Below are positions 5,000 to 15,835 of a DNA stretch of 15,835 nucleotides, piece by piece. A program made the translations under genes and the position numbers. Where the stretch lies: contig JBFLXN010000038.1 of assembly GCA_040755715.1 (NCBI GenBank), positions 1 through 15,835 on the forward strand, in the 5' to 3' direction. Origin of the DNA: JBFLXN01 sp040755715 [NCBI: Candidatus Edwardsbacteria bacterium]. GTDB lineage: Bacteria > Edwardsbacteria > AC1 > JBFLXN01. The notes under the pieces were generated by a model. The model searched no databases. It worked only from the letters and a program-made list of their open reading frames with translations, and was not told where the DNA came from. Within the stretch, counting starts at the first letter, position 1; each line of letters opens with the position of its first letter.

Positions 5000-5027
5000 A
5001 CCCCGCACCAATTCAGTGGTGCGGGGT
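5000..5027. repeat. GC-rich palindromic insertion with 4-bp flanking duplication
   Basis: Arms ACCCCGCACCA (5000-5010) and TGGTGCGGGGT (5017-5027) with a 6-nt loop. The core 5001-5026 is flanked by TGAA on both sides (4997-5000 and 5027-5030). Deleting the core and one TGAA leaves a smooth tandem GACGCAGATGAACGCAGAT, which looks like the empty site. It lies upstream of the preferred dipeptidase start, in the probable leader. There is no adjacent T run on either strand, so it is not a standard terminator. Confidence 0.7.
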
Positions 5028-5045
5028 GAACGCAGATACAAAAGA

Positions 5046-5197
5046 ATATTAAATATCAAAAATACAAATCAAAAATTAAAAATTGGATTTAAGAAGAGGC
5101 TGGGCGAATTCTCTAATATTTTTGCTTCAAGTATTCTAACTCTTAAGGGTAAAAAATGATATTTGATATTTAATATGTATTTTTGATTTTTAATATT
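5046..5197. repeat. AT-rich long imperfect inverted repeat in lpxB-dipeptidase gap
   Basis: The 36 bp at 5046-5081 match the reverse complement of 5162-5197 at about 31 of 36 positions by eye; the arms contain the recurring unit AAATATCAAAAAT. The 80-bp centre is not coding. With the hairpin at 5000-5027 it fills the 328 bp between the preferred dipeptidase start and the lpxB stop; I see no gene there. It resembles MITE-like or intergenic hairpin repeats of AT-rich genomes. Confidence 0.6.
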
Positions 5198-5288
5198 TGA
5201 TTTTTGATTTGAGAAAGAAAGGCATTTGATGATGATCGCAGAAAGAAAATATAAAAAATCCTGATAATCTGCAAAAATCTATGTCCTA

Positions 5289-6434
5289 TTATCTTGAAAT
5301 CCACTTCCAGACAATTTCAGCGGCCCGGCGGCTTGCCCCGGCTTCTCCTAATTTCTTCCTAATCTGTCGTAGCTCTTTCGTTACTACTTCTCTCGGTCGT
5401 CCCTCTAGTAAGAGCATTTGAGCCATTAGAGCAATGGCTCCAGGTTGGGCATCATATTGAAGGAATTCTGGGATGATTCTCTTTCCCGCTACAATATTTA
5501 CCAACCCAATGTGCTTGACCTTTACTAATTTTTTGGCTATTAACCAGGAGAAGAACGAAGTCTTATAGAGAATAACCATCGGTGTGCCGAGAATACCGGC
5601 TTCTAAGGTAGCTGTCCCAGAAGCGACTAAAAGCAAGGTAGCATATTGCATCATTTCATAAATAAAATCTGAAACTATCCTTATTTCTAATGAACTCTTT
5701 TTTAGTATATTTTCTACTTCTTTTTTTACTTGGGGAGCAAGCCCAAGACAAAGTTGTAAGTTTGGAATATCTTCTTTGATTTTTTCTGCTGTCTTTAGCA
5801 TTATCGGAAGCATTCTTTTTACTTCTTCTCTTCGACTGCCCGGCAGAAAGCCAAGAAGCGGGTATTTTTTATCTACCGAAAAGCGACTGAAGAAATCTTC
5901 TTTTGACAATTTCACTTTTACCACATCTAAAAGTGGATGACCTGTCCATTCAACATCAACTCCGGCTTTTTGGTAAATTTCTTTTTCGAAAGGAAAAACC
6001 ACTACCATTTTATTTACTGTTTGAGCAATCTTCTTGAGACGGTTTTTGCCCCAAGCCCAAACTTGAGGACTGATATAATATAATATAGGAATTCCCTCAG
6101 TTTTGGCTATTTTAGCCAGACGCAGATTTAATCCTGGATAATCAATAAGAATTAAAAGATTTGGCCGATACTTTCGCAATACCTTTTTCAATTTTTGTAA
6201 GACTTGATAAAAAAAAGGAAGATATCTTATCACTTCAAAAAATCCTACTACAGACATCTCCTTGATATGATAGAGAAGTTCTACCCCTTCGTCTTGTAAG
6301 CGCTCTCCACCAATGCCAAATATTTCTATATCTTGATTTAATTTCTTTAATTCTTTGACCAAAAAACTGCCATGAAGGTCACCAGAGGCTTCCCCGGCTA
6401 CAATCATTATTCTTGTTTGACCAGACTTTTCCAT
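5289..6434 (-). CDS. lpxB: Lipid-A-disaccharide synthase
   Basis: A GT-B glycosyltransferase (family GT19) that joins UDP-2,3-diacylglucosamine and lipid X to form the lipid A disaccharide at the inner face of the cytoplasmic membrane. Recognisable motifs are VAGEASGDLHGS (residues 12-23), the membrane-associated region MSVVGFFEVIRYLPFF (60-75), LIDYPGLNLRLA (97-108), SPQVWAWG (122-129), TGHPLLD (164-170), LLGFLPGSRREEV (193-205) and, in the nucleotide-binding C-terminal half, SGTATLEAGILGTP. At 381 residues it is full length. The start at 6434 gives beta-strand 1 its usual lead-in (RIMIVAGEASGD). A second ATG at 6407 overlaps the upstream stop as TAATG but would cut that strand short. Either way the gene overlaps the GnnA-like gene and must be translationally coupled to it. 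Confidence 0.96.
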   Translation of the reverse strand: MEKSGQTRIMIVAGEASGDLHGSFLVKELKKLNQDIEIFGIGGERLQDEGVELLYHIKEMSVVGFFEVIRYLPFFYQVLQKLKKVLRKYRPNLLILIDYPGLNLRLAKIAKTEGIPILYYISPQVWAWGKNRLKKIAQTVNKMVVVFPFEKEIYQKAGVDVEWTGHPLLDVVKVKLSKEDFFSRFSVDKKYPLLGFLPGSRREEVKRMLPIMLKTAEKIKEDIPNLQLCLGLAPQVKKEVENILKKSSLEIRIVSDFIYEMMQYATLLLVASGTATLEAGILGTPMVILYKTSFFSWLIAKKLVKVKHIGLVNIVAGKRIIPEFLQYDAQPGAIALMAQMLLLEGRPREVVTKELRQIRKKLGEAGASRRAAEIVWKWISR

Positions 6435-7357: not shown

Positions 7358-7373
7358 GAGAATTCCTCTTTTC

Positions 7374-7545
7374 ATTGCAAAATGCAAAATTAGCAATTAG
7401 CAATTTAAAATGTTAAATTTAGTCCCGATGGACATCGGGACTAAATTTGCAATGCGTTATTCATCTCTTTCTTTATGTCCATTGATAATTGTTAATTTTG
7501 TATTGCTAATTTTGCAATGGATTCTATCTATCCACTATATTCCGT
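7374..7545. repeat. AT-rich imperfect palindrome, copy 1 (lpxA / gnnA-like junction)
   Basis: Ends ATTGCAAAATGC (from 7374) and GCTAATTTTGCAAT (to 7518) are inverted copies, so the whole can fold on itself. From 7449 to about 7545 it matches 9723-9820 at roughly 85% by eye, and the left arm also matches. It differs from copy 2 by a 28-bp palindromic insertion (7415-7448 region). Its left end overlaps the longest possible N-terminus of the oxidoreductase. It has no coding potential of its own. Confidence 0.75.
7415..7448. repeat. Perfect 15-bp-arm hairpin inserted in repeat copy 1
   Basis: Arms AAATTTAGTCCCGAT (7415-7429) and ATCGGGACTAAATTT (7434-7448) with a 4-nt loop GGAC. Compared with the sister repeat at 9694-9840, the net insertion is 28 bp: a 22-bp core bounded by AAATTT on each side. 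The core arms are close to those of the element at 12430-12449. On RNA it would be a very stable hairpin inside the lpx operon, but no T run follows, so it is not a normal terminator. Confidence 0.75.
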
Positions 7546-7563
7546 GAAAAGCTAAATTTCTTC

Positions 7564-8346
7564 TTAGGGGCTGTGTTTTTCAATGCCTCTTTTACTTTTT
7601 TCAATGAATTCAATAAGGTGGGTAACTTCTGGAGTTTGAGGAAAGTCTGATTTGAGTTGCTCTAAAGCCTGACTGGTATTGAGACTACTACGAAAGATAA
7701 GGCGAAAAGCCTTAGAAAGAAGAATCCTTGTCTCTGGTTTAAAACCGTATCTTTCCAAGGCGATGTTGTTCAATCCATAGATTTTCATAGGGTTGCCGGC
7801 GGCTTTGGCGTAAGGAAGTACATCCTTGGCACAGCGGGAGGCACCACCGACAATGGCATAACATCCTATTTGAACAAACTGATGAACTGGTGTTAGTCCA
7901 CCCACTACCGCAAAATCTTCAATCTCTACATGACCTGCCAAATTGACGCTATTAGCCAAAATTACATTCTTACCAATTTTACATTGATGAGCAATGTGAC
8001 TGTAAGCCATTAAGAAACAATGATTACCAATCTGGGTAATACTTCCTTCTGGTGTGCCACGATGGATGGTAACAAATTCTCTAACGATGACATTATCTCC
8101 AAGGTGACAAAAACTTTTAGTCCCTTTGTATTTTAAATCTTGTGGTTCTCCACCAATAGAAGCCCCGTGAGCAATCTTACAATTCTTTCCGATCTTGACC
8201 CATTTGTGCAAGACCACCATCGGACCAATCTCACTATCTTCACCGATTTCCACTTCCTCGCCGATAACGGTATAAGGTCCGATTTTTACCCCTTCCGCAA
8301 TTTTAACTGAAGGGTGAATGATGACTGTCGGATGAATGTCCGTCAT
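7564..8346 (-). CDS. lpxA: UDP-N-acetylglucosamine acyltransferase
   Basis: A trimeric left-handed beta-helix enzyme that moves a 3-hydroxyacyl chain from ACP to the 3-position of UDP-GlcNAc (or UDP-GlcNAc3N), the first lipid A step. Hexapeptide repeats of the [LIV]-G-x4 type run from IHPSVKI through about residue 175. The catalytic region MAYSHIAHQCKIG (113-125) contains H117 and H120; H120 aligns with the general base of the family. VHQFVQIG (154-161) and AAGNPMKIYGLN (182-193) precede the helical C-terminal domain that completes the trimer. Length 260 is typical. The ATG overlaps the lpxC-fabZ stop by 4 bp (ATGA), so translation is coupled. If the downstream GnnA-like protein works with an aminotransferase, the acceptor may carry a 3-amino group. 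Confidence 0.97.
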   Translation of the reverse strand: MTDIHPTVIIHPSVKIAEGVKIGPYTVIGEEVEIGEDSEIGPMVVLHKWVKIGKNCKIAHGASIGGEPQDLKYKGTKSFCHLGDNVIVREFVTIHRGTPEGSITQIGNHCFLMAYSHIAHQCKIGKNVILANSVNLAGHVEIEDFAVVGGLTPVHQFVQIGCYAIVGGASRCAKDVLPYAKAAGNPMKIYGLNNIALERYGFKPETRILLSKAFRLIFRSSLNTSQALEQLKSDFPQTPEVTHLIEFIEKSKRGIEKHSP

Positions 8347-9635
8347 TTTTCTATCACCATCGCCATCAATTGTGCTTCAGCTACCAAGTTATTTTCCACA
8401 TAAGCTTTGCCTGTCATTTTGCAGATGCGTCCTTTCAGTTTAACCATTTCTAATTCAAAGCGAATCTGGTCACCAGGCACCACTGGCCTGCGGAATTTTG
8501 CCTTATCAATTTCCATAAAAATTACTAATTTATTTTCCGGATTTTCCACACTGTGCAGTAAGAGAAATCCACCAACTTGGGCCATTGCTTCAATAATTAA
8601 GACTCCAGGCATTAGTGGTCTTCCCGGAAAATGTCCAGGGAAAAACGGTTCATTAAGAGTTACATTCTTAATGCCGACGACTCGTCTTTTTTCTTCTAAT
8701 TCCAAAATTCTGTCAACTAAGAGAAATGGGTAACGATGCGGCATTAGTTGTAAAATGGCATTGATATCAAAGACAGGACCTTGCTTTTTCTTTTCAATTT
8801 CTTCGGCGACTTTTTTTAATTCTCTAACAAATTTAATGTGGGAGCGATGTCCGGATTTGATAGCCAAGAGATGAGCCTTCAGAGGTTGTCCCAGTAAAGC
8901 CAAATCTCCCAAGAGGTCTATTATTTTATGTCGCACGAACTCATCGGGATACCTGAGAGGTTCAGGGTTGACAATGCCTTGTTCACCAATAACGATGGCG
9001 CAATTTAGTGTCCCCCCCTTAATGAGTCCCTGTTGACGCAACCGTTGTACATCGTTCTCCAAGCAGAAAGTTCTGGCTGGGGCAATTTCTTTGATAAAGG
9101 TTTCCGGGCTAATTTCAAAAGAGGTGTATTGACTCTTAAGAACAGGATGGTGAAAATCAATGGTAAAACTGAGGCGCAGAGAATTGTGTGGTGAAGCCAC
9201 TAATTGGATACCGTCTTCAGAAAGAGTTACTAGCCGGTCTAAAGATAAGAAATTTCGTGTAGCATCCTGTTCAATCTTACCGGCTTTTTGTAATAATTCT
9301 ACAAAAGGCTTGCTACTTCCGTCGCCGAAAGGGATTTCCTCGGCATCAACTTCAATATAGAGATTATCAATTCCCAGTGCTACTACCGCCGCCAAGAGAT
9401 GTTCAATAGTAGCAACCTTTGCCTCATCAATTCCTATAGTAGTCCCCCTTTCGGTGCCAACAACATACTCTATTTTTGCAGGAATTGAAGAGGCTTGAGG
9501 CAGATCACTTCTGATGAAGATAAGTCCTGTATGGGGGGGAGCTGGCTTAAGAGTAATAGTTGAATTTATTCCACTATGGACTCCCATTCCTGAATAGATT
9601 ACAGTTTCTACAATAGTTTGCTGAAGGTTTGACAT
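8343..9635 (-). CDS. lpxC-fabZ: Bifunctional LpxC-FabZ: UDP-3-O-acyl-GlcNAc deacetylase / 3-hydroxyacyl-ACP dehydratase
   Basis: One 430-residue protein with two complete enzymes. Residues 1-~285 are LpxC, the zinc deacetylase that commits the pathway: IEHLLAAV (77-84) with E78 and H79, VRHKIIDLLGDLALLG (234-249) with zinc ligands H236 and D240, and KSGHRSH (260-266) with catalytic H263. Residues ~288-430 are the FabZ hot-dog dehydratase: LMPHRYPFLLVDRI (297-310), FFPGHFPGRPLMPGV (331-345) with catalytic H335, and IIEAMAQVGG (347-356) with E349. The short linker EIEKKKQGP joins them. The ATG has GGAG 6 nt upstream. Such fusions are known in Bacteroidetes and some other phyla. It lies between lpxD (184 bp away, across a repeat) and lpxA (4-bp overlap). 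No separate fabZ or lpxC is in the window. Confidence 0.97.
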   Translation of the reverse strand: MSNLQQTIVETVIYSGMGVHSGINSTITLKPAPPHTGLIFIRSDLPQASSIPAKIEYVVGTERGTTIGIDEAKVATIEHLLAAVVALGIDNLYIEVDAEEIPFGDGSSKPFVELLQKAGKIEQDATRNFLSLDRLVTLSEDGIQLVASPHNSLRLSFTIDFHHPVLKSQYTSFEISPETFIKEIAPARTFCLENDVQRLRQQGLIKGGTLNCAIVIGEQGIVNPEPLRYPDEFVRHKIIDLLGDLALLGQPLKAHLLAIKSGHRSHIKFVRELKKVAEEIEKKKQGPVFDINAILQLMPHRYPFLLVDRILELEEKRRVVGIKNVTLNEPFFPGHFPGRPLMPGVLIIEAMAQVGGFLLLHSVENPENKLVIFMEIDKAKFRRPVVPGDQIRFELEMVKLKGRICKMTGKAYVENNLVAEAQLMAMVIEK

Positions 9636-9693
9636 TTTTTACTCCAAGTTTGATTAGCTCATTACAAATTGTCGTGGGCAATAAAGATTATTC

Positions 9694-9840
9694 AGTGCAA
9701 AATGTAAAATTAGCAGTTAGCATTTTAAAATGATAATTTTGCAACGATTTATTCATCTTTTTCTTTGTATTCATTGATAATTGCTAATTTTTCATTGCTA
9801 GTTTTGCAATGGATTCTATCTACTCCCTATATTCGGTGAG
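9694..9840. repeat. AT-rich imperfect palindrome, copy 2 (lpxD / lpxC junction)
   Basis: Left end AGTGCAAAATGTAAAATTAGC (from 9694) is an imperfect inverted match to the right end CATTGCTAGTTTTGCAAT (to 9810). It is homologous to 7374-7545 but lacks the 28-bp hairpin. Similarity continues past the palindrome into the last six codons of lpxD (TTCTATCTA to GGTGAG), so the duplicated unit may have included the 3' tip of lpxD or supplied its present stop codon. Confidence 0.72.
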
Positions 9841-10866
9841 GAGCCTCAATACTTTTTGTATGTCTCTTTCCATTTGATAGAATCTTTTTGTCAATTCAGG
9901 AAGTCTCGCTACCGCTGCTTCTCTTCGTTTTGCTTCAGCATGTGGTCTGGCCGGATAACCAGAAACAACAGTATTGTCTGGGATTGATTTAGTCACACCC
10001 GCTTGCGCTCCAATAGTAACATTATTTCCAATCTTGATATGGTCAGCCAAACCAGCTTGACCTGCAATCACACAATTATCGCCAATGATTGTAGAGCCGC
10101 CAATGCCTACTTCAGCCGCAATCACACAGTTTCTGCCGATAGTCACATTATGTCCTATTTGGACTAAATTGTCAACTTTTGTTCCGTAACCAATGCGCGT
10201 GATTCCCAAAGTAGCCCGGTCAATAGTAGTATTAGCACCAATTTCTACTTCGTCTTCAATGATTACCGTTCCCAGTTGGGGAATTTTATAGTATCTCTCT
10301 TTGTCTTTTGTGTAGCCGAAACCATCGGCTCCGAGAACAACACCACAGTGAACGATAACATGTTTTGCTAAGACTACTTCCTCACGAATAGAAACATTTG
10401 GATAAATTAAACAACCATTGCCAATTTTTGCTCTTTTACCAATATAAACAAATGGATAAATAATGCAATTCCGACCAATTTCAACCTCATCTTCAATTAT
10501 AGTAAAAGCCCCAATAAAAGCGTTTTCTCCAATCTTAGCCGAAGAAGAAATAATAGCAGAGGGATGAAAACCCGGCTTAAATTTTTCCTTTTTCTCTTCG
10601 GCGAAAATAGTAGCTATTTTGGCAAAGGCAAGATATGGATTTTCACTGCGAATAATAGGAAGAGGAGCTGTGCTGATTTCTCTAGGCACAATAACCGCAG
10701 AAGCTCGACTGGTCTCTAAAAGAGACCTATGCCTGACGTCACTAAGAAAAGTGAGTTCTCCCTCTTTAGCCTCATTGAGAGGAGCTAGTCCGGTAATGAC
10801 AATTTCCGTATCAGCCGTCAATTCACCTTGAACGATTTCAGTGATTTCAGCCAAAGTAATTTTCAT
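9820..10866 (-). CDS. lpxD: UDP-3-O-acylglucosamine N-acyltransferase
   Basis: The third lipid A acyltransfer enzyme: it adds a 3-hydroxyacyl chain from ACP to the 2-amino group of UDP-3-O-acyl-GlcN. Residues 1-~98 are the uridine-binding N-terminal domain (ITGLAPLNEAKEGELTFLSD at 24-43), residues ~100-315 the left-handed beta-helix with hexapeptide repeats, and the tail a helical extension (YQMERDIQKVLRLLTEY) for ACP binding and trimerisation. VVLGADGFGYTKD (176-188) and VDNLVQIGHNVTIG (231-244) contain the conserved catalytic H239. At 348 residues it is full length. The stop and last six codons fall in DNA shared with a repeat copy at ~7540. It follows the Skp-like gene with a 168-bp gap. 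Confidence 0.97.
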   Translation of the reverse strand: MKITLAEITEIVQGELTADTEIVITGLAPLNEAKEGELTFLSDVRHRSLLETSRASAVIVPREISTAPLPIIRSENPYLAFAKIATIFAEEKKEKFKPGFHPSAIISSSAKIGENAFIGAFTIIEDEVEIGRNCIIYPFVYIGKRAKIGNGCLIYPNVSIREEVVLAKHVIVHCGVVLGADGFGYTKDKERYYKIPQLGTVIIEDEVEIGANTTIDRATLGITRIGYGTKVDNLVQIGHNVTIGRNCVIAAEVGIGGSTIIGDNCVIAGQAGLADHIKIGNNVTIGAQAGVTKSIPDNTVVSGYPARPHAEAKRREAAVARLPELTKRFYQMERDIQKVLRLLTEYRE

Positions 10867-12193: not shown

Positions 12194-12345
12194 TTTTACG
12201 GTCTCCCAGCCCGAAACGAAAGTGAACCAAAGGTGGCTAAAGACGGGCGGGCGACCGGTCAATTCCTTCGGGAAGCCGAATACGGGAAATCTGTATGTTC
12301 GGTTTGAAGCAGGGGACGACGGTAGTAATGCTATCTCCTACTCTA
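12194..12345 (+). ncRNA. Group II intron 3' remnant (domains V and VI), no reverse transcriptase
   Basis: At 12273-12306 there is a domain V-like hairpin. The lower stem AGCCGAA pairs with TTCGGTT, and the conserved AGC catalytic triad leads in. The upper stem TACGG / TCTGTA is capped by GAAA, and an unpaired TG bulge (12296-12297) follows on the 3' side. Directly after it, AGGGGACGACGGTAG (from 12311) pairs with CTATCTCCT, giving a domain VI-like hairpin ending in TCCTACTCTAC, a usual bacterial intron 3' end. The preceding GTGAACCAAAGGTGG region also resembles bacterial group II introns. Domains I-III and any maturase ORF are absent, so this is a dead fragment or a heavily reduced intron. 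Confidence 0.68.
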
Positions 12346-12349
12346 CTCA

Positions 12350-12478
12350 ATATTTTTTGACAGGATTTACATGATAAAAGATAAGATAAGCTCTAAAATC
12401 CGAAACAAAAATCCTGTTAATCATCTGACGTCCCGATTCCATTGGGACTTTGGACGATGGCGTCCTGTCAAATAATAT
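12350..12478. repeat. Large imperfect palindrome with TTTGACAGGA ends
   Basis: ATATTTTTTGACAGGA (12350-12365) matches the reverse complement of 12463-12478 with one mismatch. The centre carries decayed AGGATTTACATGAT / AATCCTGTTAATCAT units, like the GACAGGATTAACAGGAT intergenic repeats of many bacteria. Inside its right half lies another CCCG palindrome, GTCCCGAT (12430-12437) and ATTGGGAC (12441-12448), possibly bounded by CGTCC copies (12429-12433, 12461-12465). It follows the intron remnant by about 5 bp. Confidence 0.65.
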
Positions 12479-13480: not shown

Positions 13481-15835
13481 TTACTTTATTACGCCTAAGG
13501 GTTTCTTTATAGTCTTGCTTTGCGTCGTTCCTTTAAACTCAAACACATAGACATAGATACCAGAGCCGACATAGTCGTCGAAGTCATTCTTTCCATCCCA
13601 GCGAATGGCATCCGAGGTCTCAAAGTCTCTATTCTCAATAAGAGTTCTGACTAAATCGCCAGCCAGATCATAGACCTTTAAGGTAACTTTTCCTTTCTCC
13701 GAAAGTCTAAAGACACAGTCTGTCCCTTCAGACGGAATAAATGGGTTTCTTGTCCAAAAGACTTGTAATTCCTTGACCGTTGTCCGCCTATCAACCCCTA
13801 AGGCATAAATAGTAAAGTGATTAACACTAATGGTTAAAGTGTTGTTCTTACTATCTCTAACTGGCTCACCAGCTCTGATCCACTTAAATCCGTTCCAATA
13901 GAAAGCCACCAGACTTGTTTCGCTCCAGTTAAGAGTTCCATCCTGATCCGGGTCAAGGTCCGCCTCAGTATAAGGAAGGGTTATCTCCACTGGTTTGTGG
14001 AAGACTAATCCTGTTGGACTAAACTCATGGGCAACACCAATTAGACGAAGTAAAGTATCAGCTGGCAGAGTAAGGTCTGTCTTTGGAACAGGAACGATGG
14101 AAATTGTCTGCTTCTCTAAAAGCGCCTTAGGTGGAATTACTACCGTAGTTCCATCAGGAGACTTCACTGTACCACCTGCATCTCCAACTCCCTGACTGAC
14201 CTTAGGAACAATGTAAGTAACCCTAGAGCTGTCCGAAGTAGAAAATCCTACCTTGTCATTAACCGAGACTCTTATTTTGTTCCAACCTTCAATTAGCCGG
14301 ATGATTCGGCTAAAGGTGCGATCACTTCTTGGAGGCAGAATAATAGGACTGTCATTGATATTGTTACCTGCCTGATTGCGTAGTTCAATGACAATAGAAG
14401 AAGTAGTATTGGTGTCGGGTAAATCGTAATAGGAGCCAGTGACAATTACCTCAGAGTAGTATACTTCACCGTTTAAGGAATCTCCCTTAGCCGGAAGTGG
14501 ACTCACCACTATCTTCAACCTCGGCGGTGTATTGTCCAAAGTGACATAACCAGTTCTGGTACTAGAATTGGGAACAATATCAGAAGCAGAGATGGTAAAG
14601 GAAACTAATCCATTGGTAGTGTTTGTCACAGTAACCACTGCGGTATAGACATTGTCACCAGCGACCGCATCACCATTGGTTCCATTGTCATACATCTGGA
14701 TATTGTTAACACCATTCAGGTTTGTCCCATCAAGCCTCACCGTTGAGGTATCAACTCTGGTAGTAGCATCTGTGATTAATGCAGTGATAGTGACGCTCTG
14801 TGTATTTCTGACTGCGGTCTGACCAGAGGGATAAGTGACCGATACATTCTCAATCGCAGGTCCTTTGGTATCTACAGTGAAAATCATTGAAGCTGGATTA
14901 CCCCAGACATTGGTAGAATCCTTGCCCCGCACATAGACTGTGTGTTGACCCTCAGATAGGCTGGAAATTGGGAAGTATCCCTTAACAAAGACAGAATCAG
15001 CACCAGTGGCTCCAGTCATCGCCGTGCCAGTCCCATAAGGTCCAATCACATCCACAAAATATTCCGCCGCCATCACCCCATTTGTATCCTTTACTACCGC
15101 GGTCAAGGTATCAGCTGCATTTAGAATATTGTCATTCAAGGGGTCAATCGCAAAGTCTAAATTTGAAGTTATAGGACCCGAGTTGTCAAGCACCAAATTA
15201 ACTGTGCCAGTGCTGGTCAGTCCCACTCCATCAGTCGCGGTAACCGAAATGGTATAGGTTCCGTTTGGCCTAATATTCACCTCGCTTAAGGTGTAGGTAA
15301 TGAAATATACCCCCATACCACTATCTTGAACCGTTTCGGCACCATTGATATAATAGTTGTCTATCGGGCTAAAGTCTGCTGTAACCCTATATCCAGCCGC
15401 ATCTGTGGTCGCACGCAACCTAATCGTCTCACCATTGTGGTAGATATTGTCAGGGTCTAAGACAGTCACTACTACCGCGCCCGGAGCAGTATTGTCCAAA
15501 ATTACACTGCCAGTCTTAGCCGTACCAGCATTGGGCACAATGTCTGAGGCAGAAACGGTGAAATTTTGTGCCCCATTCAAACCAGTAGTAATCGTTACTA
15601 CTGCGGTATAGACATTGTCACCAGCGACCGCATCACCATTGGTTCCATTGTCATACATCTGGATATTGTTAACACCATTCAGGTTTGTCCCATCAAGCCT
15701 CACCGTTAAGGTATCAACTCTGGTAGTAGCATCTGTGATTAATGCAGTGATAGTGACGCTCTGTGTATTTCTGACTGCGGTCTGACCAGAGGGATAAGTG
15801 ACCGATACATTCTCAATCGCAGGTCCTTTGGTATC
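13481..15835 (-). CDS. Large secreted multi-Ig protein with ZU5-like and FlgD/T9SS-type C-terminal domains (5' end off window)
   Basis: The frame is open to the right edge, so at least 784 residues are present and the N-terminus is missing; the GTG at 15703 is internal. The N-terminal part consists of repeated Ig-like modules with DTKGPAIENVSVTYPSG and the turn MYDNGTNGDAVAGDNVYTA, a choice-of-anchor-type motif found twice. Between about 13800 and 14195 is a ZU5-like domain (GGTVKSPDGTTVVIPPKAL, then FSPTGLVFHKPVEITLP) containing a calcium-loop-like DLDPDQDGTLN. The last ~95 residues (NPFIPSEG, KVTLKVYDLAGDLVRTL, IRWDGKND, GSGIYVYVFEFKG, ending KKPLGVIK) match the FlgD-Ig/T9SS C-terminal sorting type. 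A surface adhesin or S-layer-like role is inferred. It is followed 30 bp later by the PorV-like gene. Confidence 0.82.
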   Translation of the reverse strand, partial: DTKGPAIENVSVTYPSGQTAVRNTQSVTITALITDATTRVDTLTVRLDGTNLNGVNNIQMYDNGTNGDAVAGDNVYTAVVTITTGLNGAQNFTVSASDIVPNAGTAKTGSVILDNTAPGAVVVTVLDPDNIYHNGETIRLRATTDAAGYRVTADFSPIDNYYINGAETVQDSGMGVYFITYTLSEVNIRPNGTYTISVTATDGVGLTSTGTVNLVLDNSGPITSNLDFAIDPLNDNILNAADTLTAVVKDTNGVMAAEYFVDVIGPYGTGTAMTGATGADSVFVKGYFPISSLSEGQHTVYVRGKDSTNVWGNPASMIFTVDTKGPAIENVSVTYPSGQTAVRNTQSVTITALITDATTRVDTSTVRLDGTNLNGVNNIQMYDNGTNGDAVAGDNVYTAVVTVTNTTNGLVSFTISASDIVPNSSTRTGYVTLDNTPPRLKIVVSPLPAKGDSLNGEVYYSEVIVTGSYYDLPDTNTTSSIVIELRNQAGNNINDSPIILPPRSDRTFSRIIRLIEGWNKIRVSVNDKVGFSTSDSSRVTYIVPKVSQGVGDAGGTVKSPDGTTVVIPPKALLEKQTISIVPVPKTDLTLPADTLLRLIGVAHEFSPTGLVFHKPVEITLPYTEADLDPDQDGTLNWSETSLVAFYWNGFKWIRAGEPVRDSKNNTLTISVNHFTIYALGVDRRTTVKELQVFWTRNPFIPSEGTDCVFRLSEKGKVTLKVYDLAGDLVRTLIENRDFETSDAIRWDGKNDFDDYVGSGIYVYVFEFKGTTQSKTIKKPLGVIK
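14637..14872 (-). repeat. Near-identical module repeat, inner copy
   Basis: These 236 bp recur at 15600-15835 with a single visible difference (14747 G versus 15710 A, Ser versus Leu codon). The offset is exactly 963 bp, or 321 codons. Similarity falls away abruptly on the low-coordinate side of 14637. Confidence 0.9.
15600..15835 (-). repeat. Near-identical module repeat, edge copy
   Basis: Partner of 14637-14872. The window ends inside this copy, so the repeat may continue. It encodes the Ig-type segment from DTKGPAIENV to the DGTNLNG and DAVAGDNVYTA motifs. Confidence 0.9.

Follow-up and report, generated by a model that had tools for sequence, protein, structure and literature searches.

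The window, by which is meant the whole 15,835-nucleotide stretch that was analyzed, contains a bacterial lipid-A operon on the minus strand, as read from the ORF list and its translations. The features discussed below are collected in Table 1. Other Pfam names assigned in the window are OmpH, MFS, dipeptidase, prepilin peptidase and glycosyltransferase. The closest relatives of the LpxC-FabZ protein among the matches listed are from Edwardsbacteria (63%) and a UBP2 bacterium (62%), and the Edwardsbacteria and UBP2 relatives form one phylum, from which 10 genomes were compared. Near-identical ATTCCATTATTTTAGAATTGTGGAATAATGGAAT palindromes at 2155-2205 and 2588-2638 bracket a 105-amino acid ORF (2209-2526), for which a Pfam search gave no match.

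Table 1. Positions of the operon genes, the repeat pair and the palindromic features in the window
Feature	Position	Strand	Remarks
lpxB	5289-6434	minus	name read from translation
Gfo/Idh oxidoreductase	start about 7375	minus	Pfam
Host repeat copy 1 ("filled")	7371-7557	plus	AT-rich imperfect palindrome between lpxA and the Gfo/Idh gene
Hairpin block, 28 bp	7414-7448		copy 1 only; TAAATTT at 7414-7420 and 7442-7448
Perfect stem, 15 bp, loop 4 nt	7415-7448		AAATTTAGTCCCGAT-GGAC-ATCGGGACTAAATTT
22-bp core	7421-7442		AGTCCCGAT-GGAC-ATCGGGACT
lpxA	7564-8346	minus	name read from translation
lpxC-fabZ fusion	8343-9635	minus	name read from translation
Host repeat copy 2 ("empty")	9691-9857	plus	between lpxD and lpxC-fabZ; overlaps the last lpxD codons
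lpxD	9820-10866	minus	name read from translation
Other palindromic element, TTGACAGGATTTACATGAT ... CCTGTCAA	12357-12472	plus	GACAGGATTTACATGAT...CCTGTC, GACAGGAT-type; right arm with extra sequence
Near-copy of core, GTCCCGAT-TCC-ATTGGGAC	12430-12448		inside the GACAGGAT-type element

The two copies of the AT-rich host repeat align without gaps once a single 28-bp block is removed from copy 1, with 132 of 159 positions identical (83%), and 28 nt is the best-fitting length when blocks of 16-39 nt are scanned over a range of start positions. The left parts of the copies are spaced by 2320 nt and the right parts by 2292 nt, a difference of 28. This confirms the original prediction of two homologous repeats that differ by one clean block, and the junction strings given there for the filled and empty copies are correct; the repeat had been placed at 7374-7545, where it does lie, but the homology continues to about 7557. 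Each copy is an imperfect inverted repeat, the arms of copy 1 (7373-7412 and 7480-7519) being 70% complementary, and all four arms are composed of degenerate 7-nt tandem repeats with a lag-7 match of 0.50-0.69 (shuffle p < 0.01 for each). Relative to shuffles, folding is much more stable for the copy-1 region (z = -6.0) and scarcely so for copy 2 (z = -1.1), and in the copy-1 fold the hairpin forms the inner part of a larger palindrome. The 187-bp repeat is represented in the 10 nearest genomes only by short partial AT-rich stretches, the best of 39 nt, and has no match in the plasmid and phage record collections. AT-rich inverted arrays built like the host repeat, with a different sequence and a lag-7 match of 0.74-0.76, are also present at 5045-5212 in the window. 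Similar AT-rich degenerate repeats at five loci elsewhere (L083, L084, L085, L090, and L093), read from the DNA, seem to lie inside coding sequence before C-terminal sorting-like domains.

The block in copy 1 has eight equivalent starts (7414-7421), a sign that it is bounded by TAAATTT as a direct repeat of 7 bp. The AAATTT said to bound the hairpin on both sides is present, but it is only part of this direct repeat. Folded as RNA the hairpin has a free energy of -19.4 kcal/mol, and as a 34-bp intergenic palindrome it has the size and shape of a REP. The longest stem in the window exceeds the longest in each of 60 dinucleotide shuffles, at 16 compared with a highest value of 14, under a rule that allows loops of 2-10 and counts the loop's own G-C pair, so that the 15-bp stem scores 16. 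On the plus strand the 9-bp stem of the core is flanked by ATTT/AAAT and the 15-bp stem by TGTT/GCAA; with both stem flanks read, neither a GTAG nor a CGTC tag is present at the hairpin foot. AAATTT is its own reverse complement and serves as both stem and direct repeat, so the two are indistinguishable here. The TAAATTT-bounded block fits an insertion of 21 bp that duplicated a 7-bp target and also fits a slippage deletion, and the pair therefore carries no polarity. What had been called an insertion thus stands as a clean with/without pair that a precise deletion between the TAAATTT repeats explains equally well, and the claim that it is direct evidence of movement in this genome is not supported in that form, as a lone pair of this kind does not demonstrate mobility. 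The best explanation for copies 1 and 2 is that they stem from an old duplication, have since diverged by 17% and are set apart by the inner hairpin, which one has and the other lacks.

The core arms GTCCCGAT/ATCGGGAC (at most one mismatch, loop 2-8) occur twice in the window, at 7422 and 12430, and in none of 200 shuffles; one of the two copies in these 15.8 kb is exact and the other near. The near-copy, 5 kb away, is carried by a different palindromic element, whose left arm is found in 6 of the 30 genomes searched and several times each in G009, G010, and G011. A second with/without pair for elements of this type is seen in a genome of the Edwardsbacteria phylum (G001), in which locus L115 is a plain GACAGGAT-type element and L111 is the same element with a 51-bp hairpin insert. 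Outside the insert 110 of 139 aligned columns are identical, and the insert occupies the position of that in the element of the window. The inserts at L111 and in the window have their ends in common (RTCYGACG ... GGNCGAYGGCG) and different hairpins. A further element, L088, has about 55 extra bases at the insert point with no perfect hairpin, and 21 of the 24 GACAGGAT-type right arms listed read straight through without an insert. The insert end at 12430, CGAYGGCGTCCTGTC, has three matches in 82 KSB1-phylum genomes; these were rejected, their surroundings not being GACAGGAT elements. Adjoining the GACAGGAT element of the window, the 3' end of a Group II intron is recognized at 12271-12346 (Rfam RF00029, 47.9 bits); the intron looks truncated since no ORF of at least 60 amino acids is listed just upstream in the spacer.

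Gain or loss of hairpins was also sought by joining the flanks of 348 hairpins from 1.6 Mb of G003, G005, and G009, which gave no filled/empty pair (0/348), although with loops of 3-8 only this procedure is blind to a pair of the L111/L115 type. The comparison of 400 kb each of G003 and G005, which at about 83% identity are too diverged for spacers to be compared, gave 27 gaps of 16-150 nt with no clear hairpin gain and one tandem copy-number difference of a GTAGGGGCGAGGTCACCTCGCCCCTAC-type palindrome. A sequence-based literature look-up of the repeat motifs returned nothing usable, two 8-mers matching primer-like text in the papers listed.

Among other bacteria the core is rare; GTCCCGAT-N(2-8)-ATCGGGAC is absent from the 10 genomes of the nearest phylum and present in 2 of 30 mixed genomes, at L081 inside a GTCATTGCGA palindrome and at L082 inside a CACCCCTCC-type repeat. 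With longer arms, the core is found in 3 of 197 genomes of one Ignavibacteria class (within the Bacteroidota phylum), in none of 82 KSB1-phylum genomes, and at 17 places in 8 of 148 Bacteroidota genomes, six of these places being in one genome and four in another. Fourteen of the 15 Bacteroidota loci examined are terminator-like, with at least 6 T in the 8 bases past the stem on one strand, as is the Ignavibacteria locus L103. The recurrence of the core may accordingly be convergence on a good terminator stem, at least for part of the pattern, as most Bacteroidota copies are plain terminators. The Bacteroidota exception, L203, has the core flanked by TTTT/AAAA with a short AT-rich array running to a start codon, and in 393 kb of its genome (G333) the core is single-copy among 17 hairpins found by the script rule. 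At L105 (about 1440-1580) the core hairpin is in the anticodon arm of a degenerate tRNA-Ser copy upstream of an intact tRNA-Ser, with TCCCGATGGTAATCGGGA in place of the CGGTTTG of the intact gene. The degenerate copy has further extra sequence in its 5' part. Orthologous terminators of two Bacteroidota genomes (L212/L213, from G377 and G421, and L215/L216) have the AGTCCCGAT stem in common but not the loop.

In viral contigs the longer TTTAGTCCCGAT-N(2-8)-ATCGGGACTAAA has a single match, in phage contig L277, where the arms are those of the window hairpin over 14 nt each. This hairpin is within an AT-rich octad palindrome that precedes the gene for the major head protein and has an unassigned gene on its other side. 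The expectation that other copies of the core would carry AAATTT flanks is partly refuted, as the flanks are GAATTT/AAATTC here and TTTT/AAAA at L203, and no AAATTT flanks are present at 12430. The 16-nt core matches 91 viral stretches, 80 of which were examined and gave 84 matches, 73 of them non-redundant. At 12 of these 73 places the core forms the apex of a GTCATTGCGA...GCAA palindrome, where six represent one locus in related contigs and 7 are independent by their flanks, and at one further place (L346) it is in a GTCATTTTGA...AAGAATA palindrome. Degenerate tandem arrays flank six viral cores (L277, L285, L315, L319, L335, and L337). Two loci flagged by regular expression were discarded, L290 as a false positive by eye among the palindrome-hosted cores (14 flagged, 13 kept) and L338, which looks like coding sequence, among those flanked by arrays (7 flagged, 6 kept). 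A permuted-arm control gave 45 stretches, 32 non-redundant, with none of the 32 in such palindromes and two flanked by arrays, these being the same sequence twice. With related loci merged, nesting is seen for 8 of 68 core places versus 0 of 32 control places, a weak difference (p = 0.04), and a second merged comparison gives 14 of 68 versus 1 of 31 (p = 0.02), values for which this single control is a rough yardstick only, as its matches came mainly from other phages. A test scoring inverted flanks of the viral matches (4/72 for the core and 0/32 for the control above the 99% point) was dropped since near-identical sequences inflated its null.

The converse pattern, one type of host with many apices, is shown by the GTCATTGCGA palindromes. 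Others of these on the core-bearing contigs carry different apices, for example GGCTGACGAAGTCAGCC, GCACCTGAAAGGTGC, and GCGAAGC, and over all loci examined there are 35 GTCATTGCGA hosts with 28 distinct apices among them. In 21 of the 35 the apex is a perfect hairpin with a loop of up to 7, and some of the 35 lie in bacterial stretches, their apices long and unstructured. Paired changes that preserve the stem are present (GTCTCGATTTATCGAGAC and GCCCCGACTTGTCGGGGC), and the apices in these hosts look exchanged rather than cleanly inserted. The second perfect hairpin of the window, at 5000-5027 (ACCCCGCACC-N-GGTGCGGGGT, 11-bp stem), stands between the halves of a GACGCAGATGA/GAACGCAGATA repeat. 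Its sequence (CCCCGCACC...GGTGCGGGG) is found in at least 120 viral stretches; among the 80 examined, 19 have a T- or A-run and there is one loose match to the host words, so that this hairpin is without the nesting pattern.

The interpretation that we favor, at even chances, is that the 28-bp block is an apical hairpin module, separable from the larger and older palindromic repeat whose arms enclose it. The outer repeat, with its degenerate 7-nt AT-rich inverted arms, and the inner hairpin, GTCCCGAT-N-ATCGGGAC, would then be two layers with separate histories, as suggested by the presence of one inner core in unrelated outer repeats and of many inner hairpins in one type of outer repeat. These are the two marks of an exchangeable apex as proposed here, a core shared by unrelated hosts and varied apices in one host, and both are observed against one permuted control. 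Exchange may take place while the palindrome is single-stranded or extruded, on the lagging strand or as a cruciform, and could proceed by a single-strand transposase, by template switching or by gene conversion between hairpins. In the window the hairpin module is probably mainly a passenger. In an lpxA-Gfo/Idh transcript it would fold into a stable stem that immediately precedes the second gene. The mobility of short CCCG/CGGG palindromes put forward in the original prediction is borne out to the extent that such hairpins are separable from their hosts (12430, L111/L115, and the viral apices), but not as movement in this genome, for which a mobile-element reading is plausible. A wider proposal, which we consider doubtful, is that outer arms from many families with no relation to each other serve as docking sites for a pool of small perfect hairpins, GTCCCGAT-N-ATCGGGAC among them. 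These hairpins would be swapped at the apices, both inside a genome and across the divide of bacteria and phages, via extruded or single-stranded hairpins and with no gene of their own.

One alternative is that the hairpin is ancestral and that copy 2 lost the block by slipped-strand deletion between the 7-bp repeats, favored by the hairpin. Hairpins between direct repeats are prone to deletion, and the TAAATTT repeats bound the block exactly. Polymerase slippage across hairpins is the subject of PMC4134008. Deletion nevertheless leaves the same core in unrelated hosts unexplained, and the 10 nearest genomes gave no third copy of the repeat to polarize the event; we judge it unlikely. A second alternative is that the hairpin began as an intrinsic terminator and has since decayed or been converted; AGTCCCGAT-N4-ATCGGGACT would be a preferred terminator stem in this region of the tree, with the T-run gone from the window copy. 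The T-runs of the Bacteroidota loci and of L103, and the orthologous terminators of G377 and G421 (L212/L213) that keep the stem and change the loop, are in its favor. Against this, just 3 of the 8 bases past the core are T on either strand of the window copy, a terminator scan did not list it, and it is internal to an operon, with lpxA on one side and a gene of the same direction on the other. A T-run is also lacking at L105, L203, and the near-copy at 12430, and among the viral matches the T-run flag is raised for just 3 of 84, unlike in Bacteroidota. A terminator origin is improbable, and the window hairpin, lacking a T-run, is probably no terminator now, even though the identical stem is used as one in Bacteroidota.

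A third alternative is movement of the palindromes by a single-strand (HUH/Y1, RAYT-like) transposase, as proposed for REPs. Y1_Tnp genes (PF01797) are present in 13 of the 15 relatives and core-bearing genomes tested and in 8 of 10 of the nearest phylum. At 8 of the 20 Y1 loci examined, the gene has similar perfect hairpins to its left and right, no more than 450 nt away; several of these, for example at L185, L186, and L191, resemble the window hairpin in having stems of 13-16 bp and loops of 4 nt. These hairpins, however, differ from the core, which is absent beside all 20 loci, and the foot of the window hairpin lacks the GTAG or CGTC tag. The hairpin family around one Y1 gene (TAGCCCATAC) is low-copy (2 sites for G009, 4 for G010) and old, since the two species share one site at 91% flank identity. 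The nine window ORFs scanned include no match to the Y1 family, and IS200/IS605-type insertion is not known to make target duplications. We regard this explanation too as having little chance of being right. The REP/RAYT connection that had been raised is retained in that Y1 genes are common in relatives, some of them with flanking hairpins, but with other cores and no tag it is a resemblance only.

Comparison with known systems places the preferred reading, a hairpin module separable from its host, near to but apart from several of them. REP, BIME, and REPIN elements of the GTAG and CGTC superfamilies carry a tetranucleotide tag at the hairpin foot (Di Nocera et al. 2013; PMC3733652), and as described there they are perfect palindromes of 20-40 bp with short loops, mostly intergenic, like the window hairpin. 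The latter differs in having no GTAG/CGTC tag, in its host, a degenerate heptad array, and in the recurrence of its core in unrelated outer repeats. The GTCATTGCGA hosts, judged by their tag (TGTC) and a stem starting AT, look like TGTC-tagged relatives of the CGTC group. REPs inserted within longer palindromes are described in Anabaena variabilis, Halothiobacillus neapolitanus, and T. roseum (PMC3733652), and nesting as such is therefore already known from section 7 of that paper. The REP-associated tyrosine transposases and REPtrons treated in PMC6006769 are resembled by the Y1 genes of the nearest phylum with flanking palindromes of the same size and shape; the difference lies in the window and at the 20 Y1 loci, with no Y1 in the window ORFs scanned, no core beside any of those loci and no guide tag. 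Like a MITE, the window block consists of inverted arms bounded by a short direct repeat, but only 21-22 bp lie between the direct repeats, and TAAATTT, which overlaps the stem in a single with/without pair, would hardly count as a target duplication of the clean kind. Rickettsia palindromic elements (PMC3733652) are likewise short palindromes scattered over unrelated places, whereas the window hairpin is intergenic with no in-frame coding use at its site. Hairpins made by template switching (PMC8794818) share the perfect stem, the less conserved surroundings and the paired stem changes, but de novo template switching requires a pre-existing arm, and copy 2 is without CCCGAT; nor would it yield the same core in unrelated hosts.

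If the two layers do have separate histories, catalogues of bacterial repeat families, which now treat each sequence as a unit, should list the outer and inner layers apart. The many palindromic spacers in uncultured phyla and their phages that lack an explanation would then pose a question that can be tackled, namely which enzyme or replication error swaps the apex. What appears to be added to the nested palindromes described in PMC3733652 is the one core common to unrelated hosts, as measured against a limited search of what is in print on apex exchange. As separate observations, a Y1 transposase gene at L190 is likewise bracketed by long perfect hairpins, and within the window a large Ig-like ORF contains a 242-bp direct repeat, 99% identical between 14631-14872 and 15594-15835 and reaching the window end, which is either an internal protein repeat or an assembly joint.
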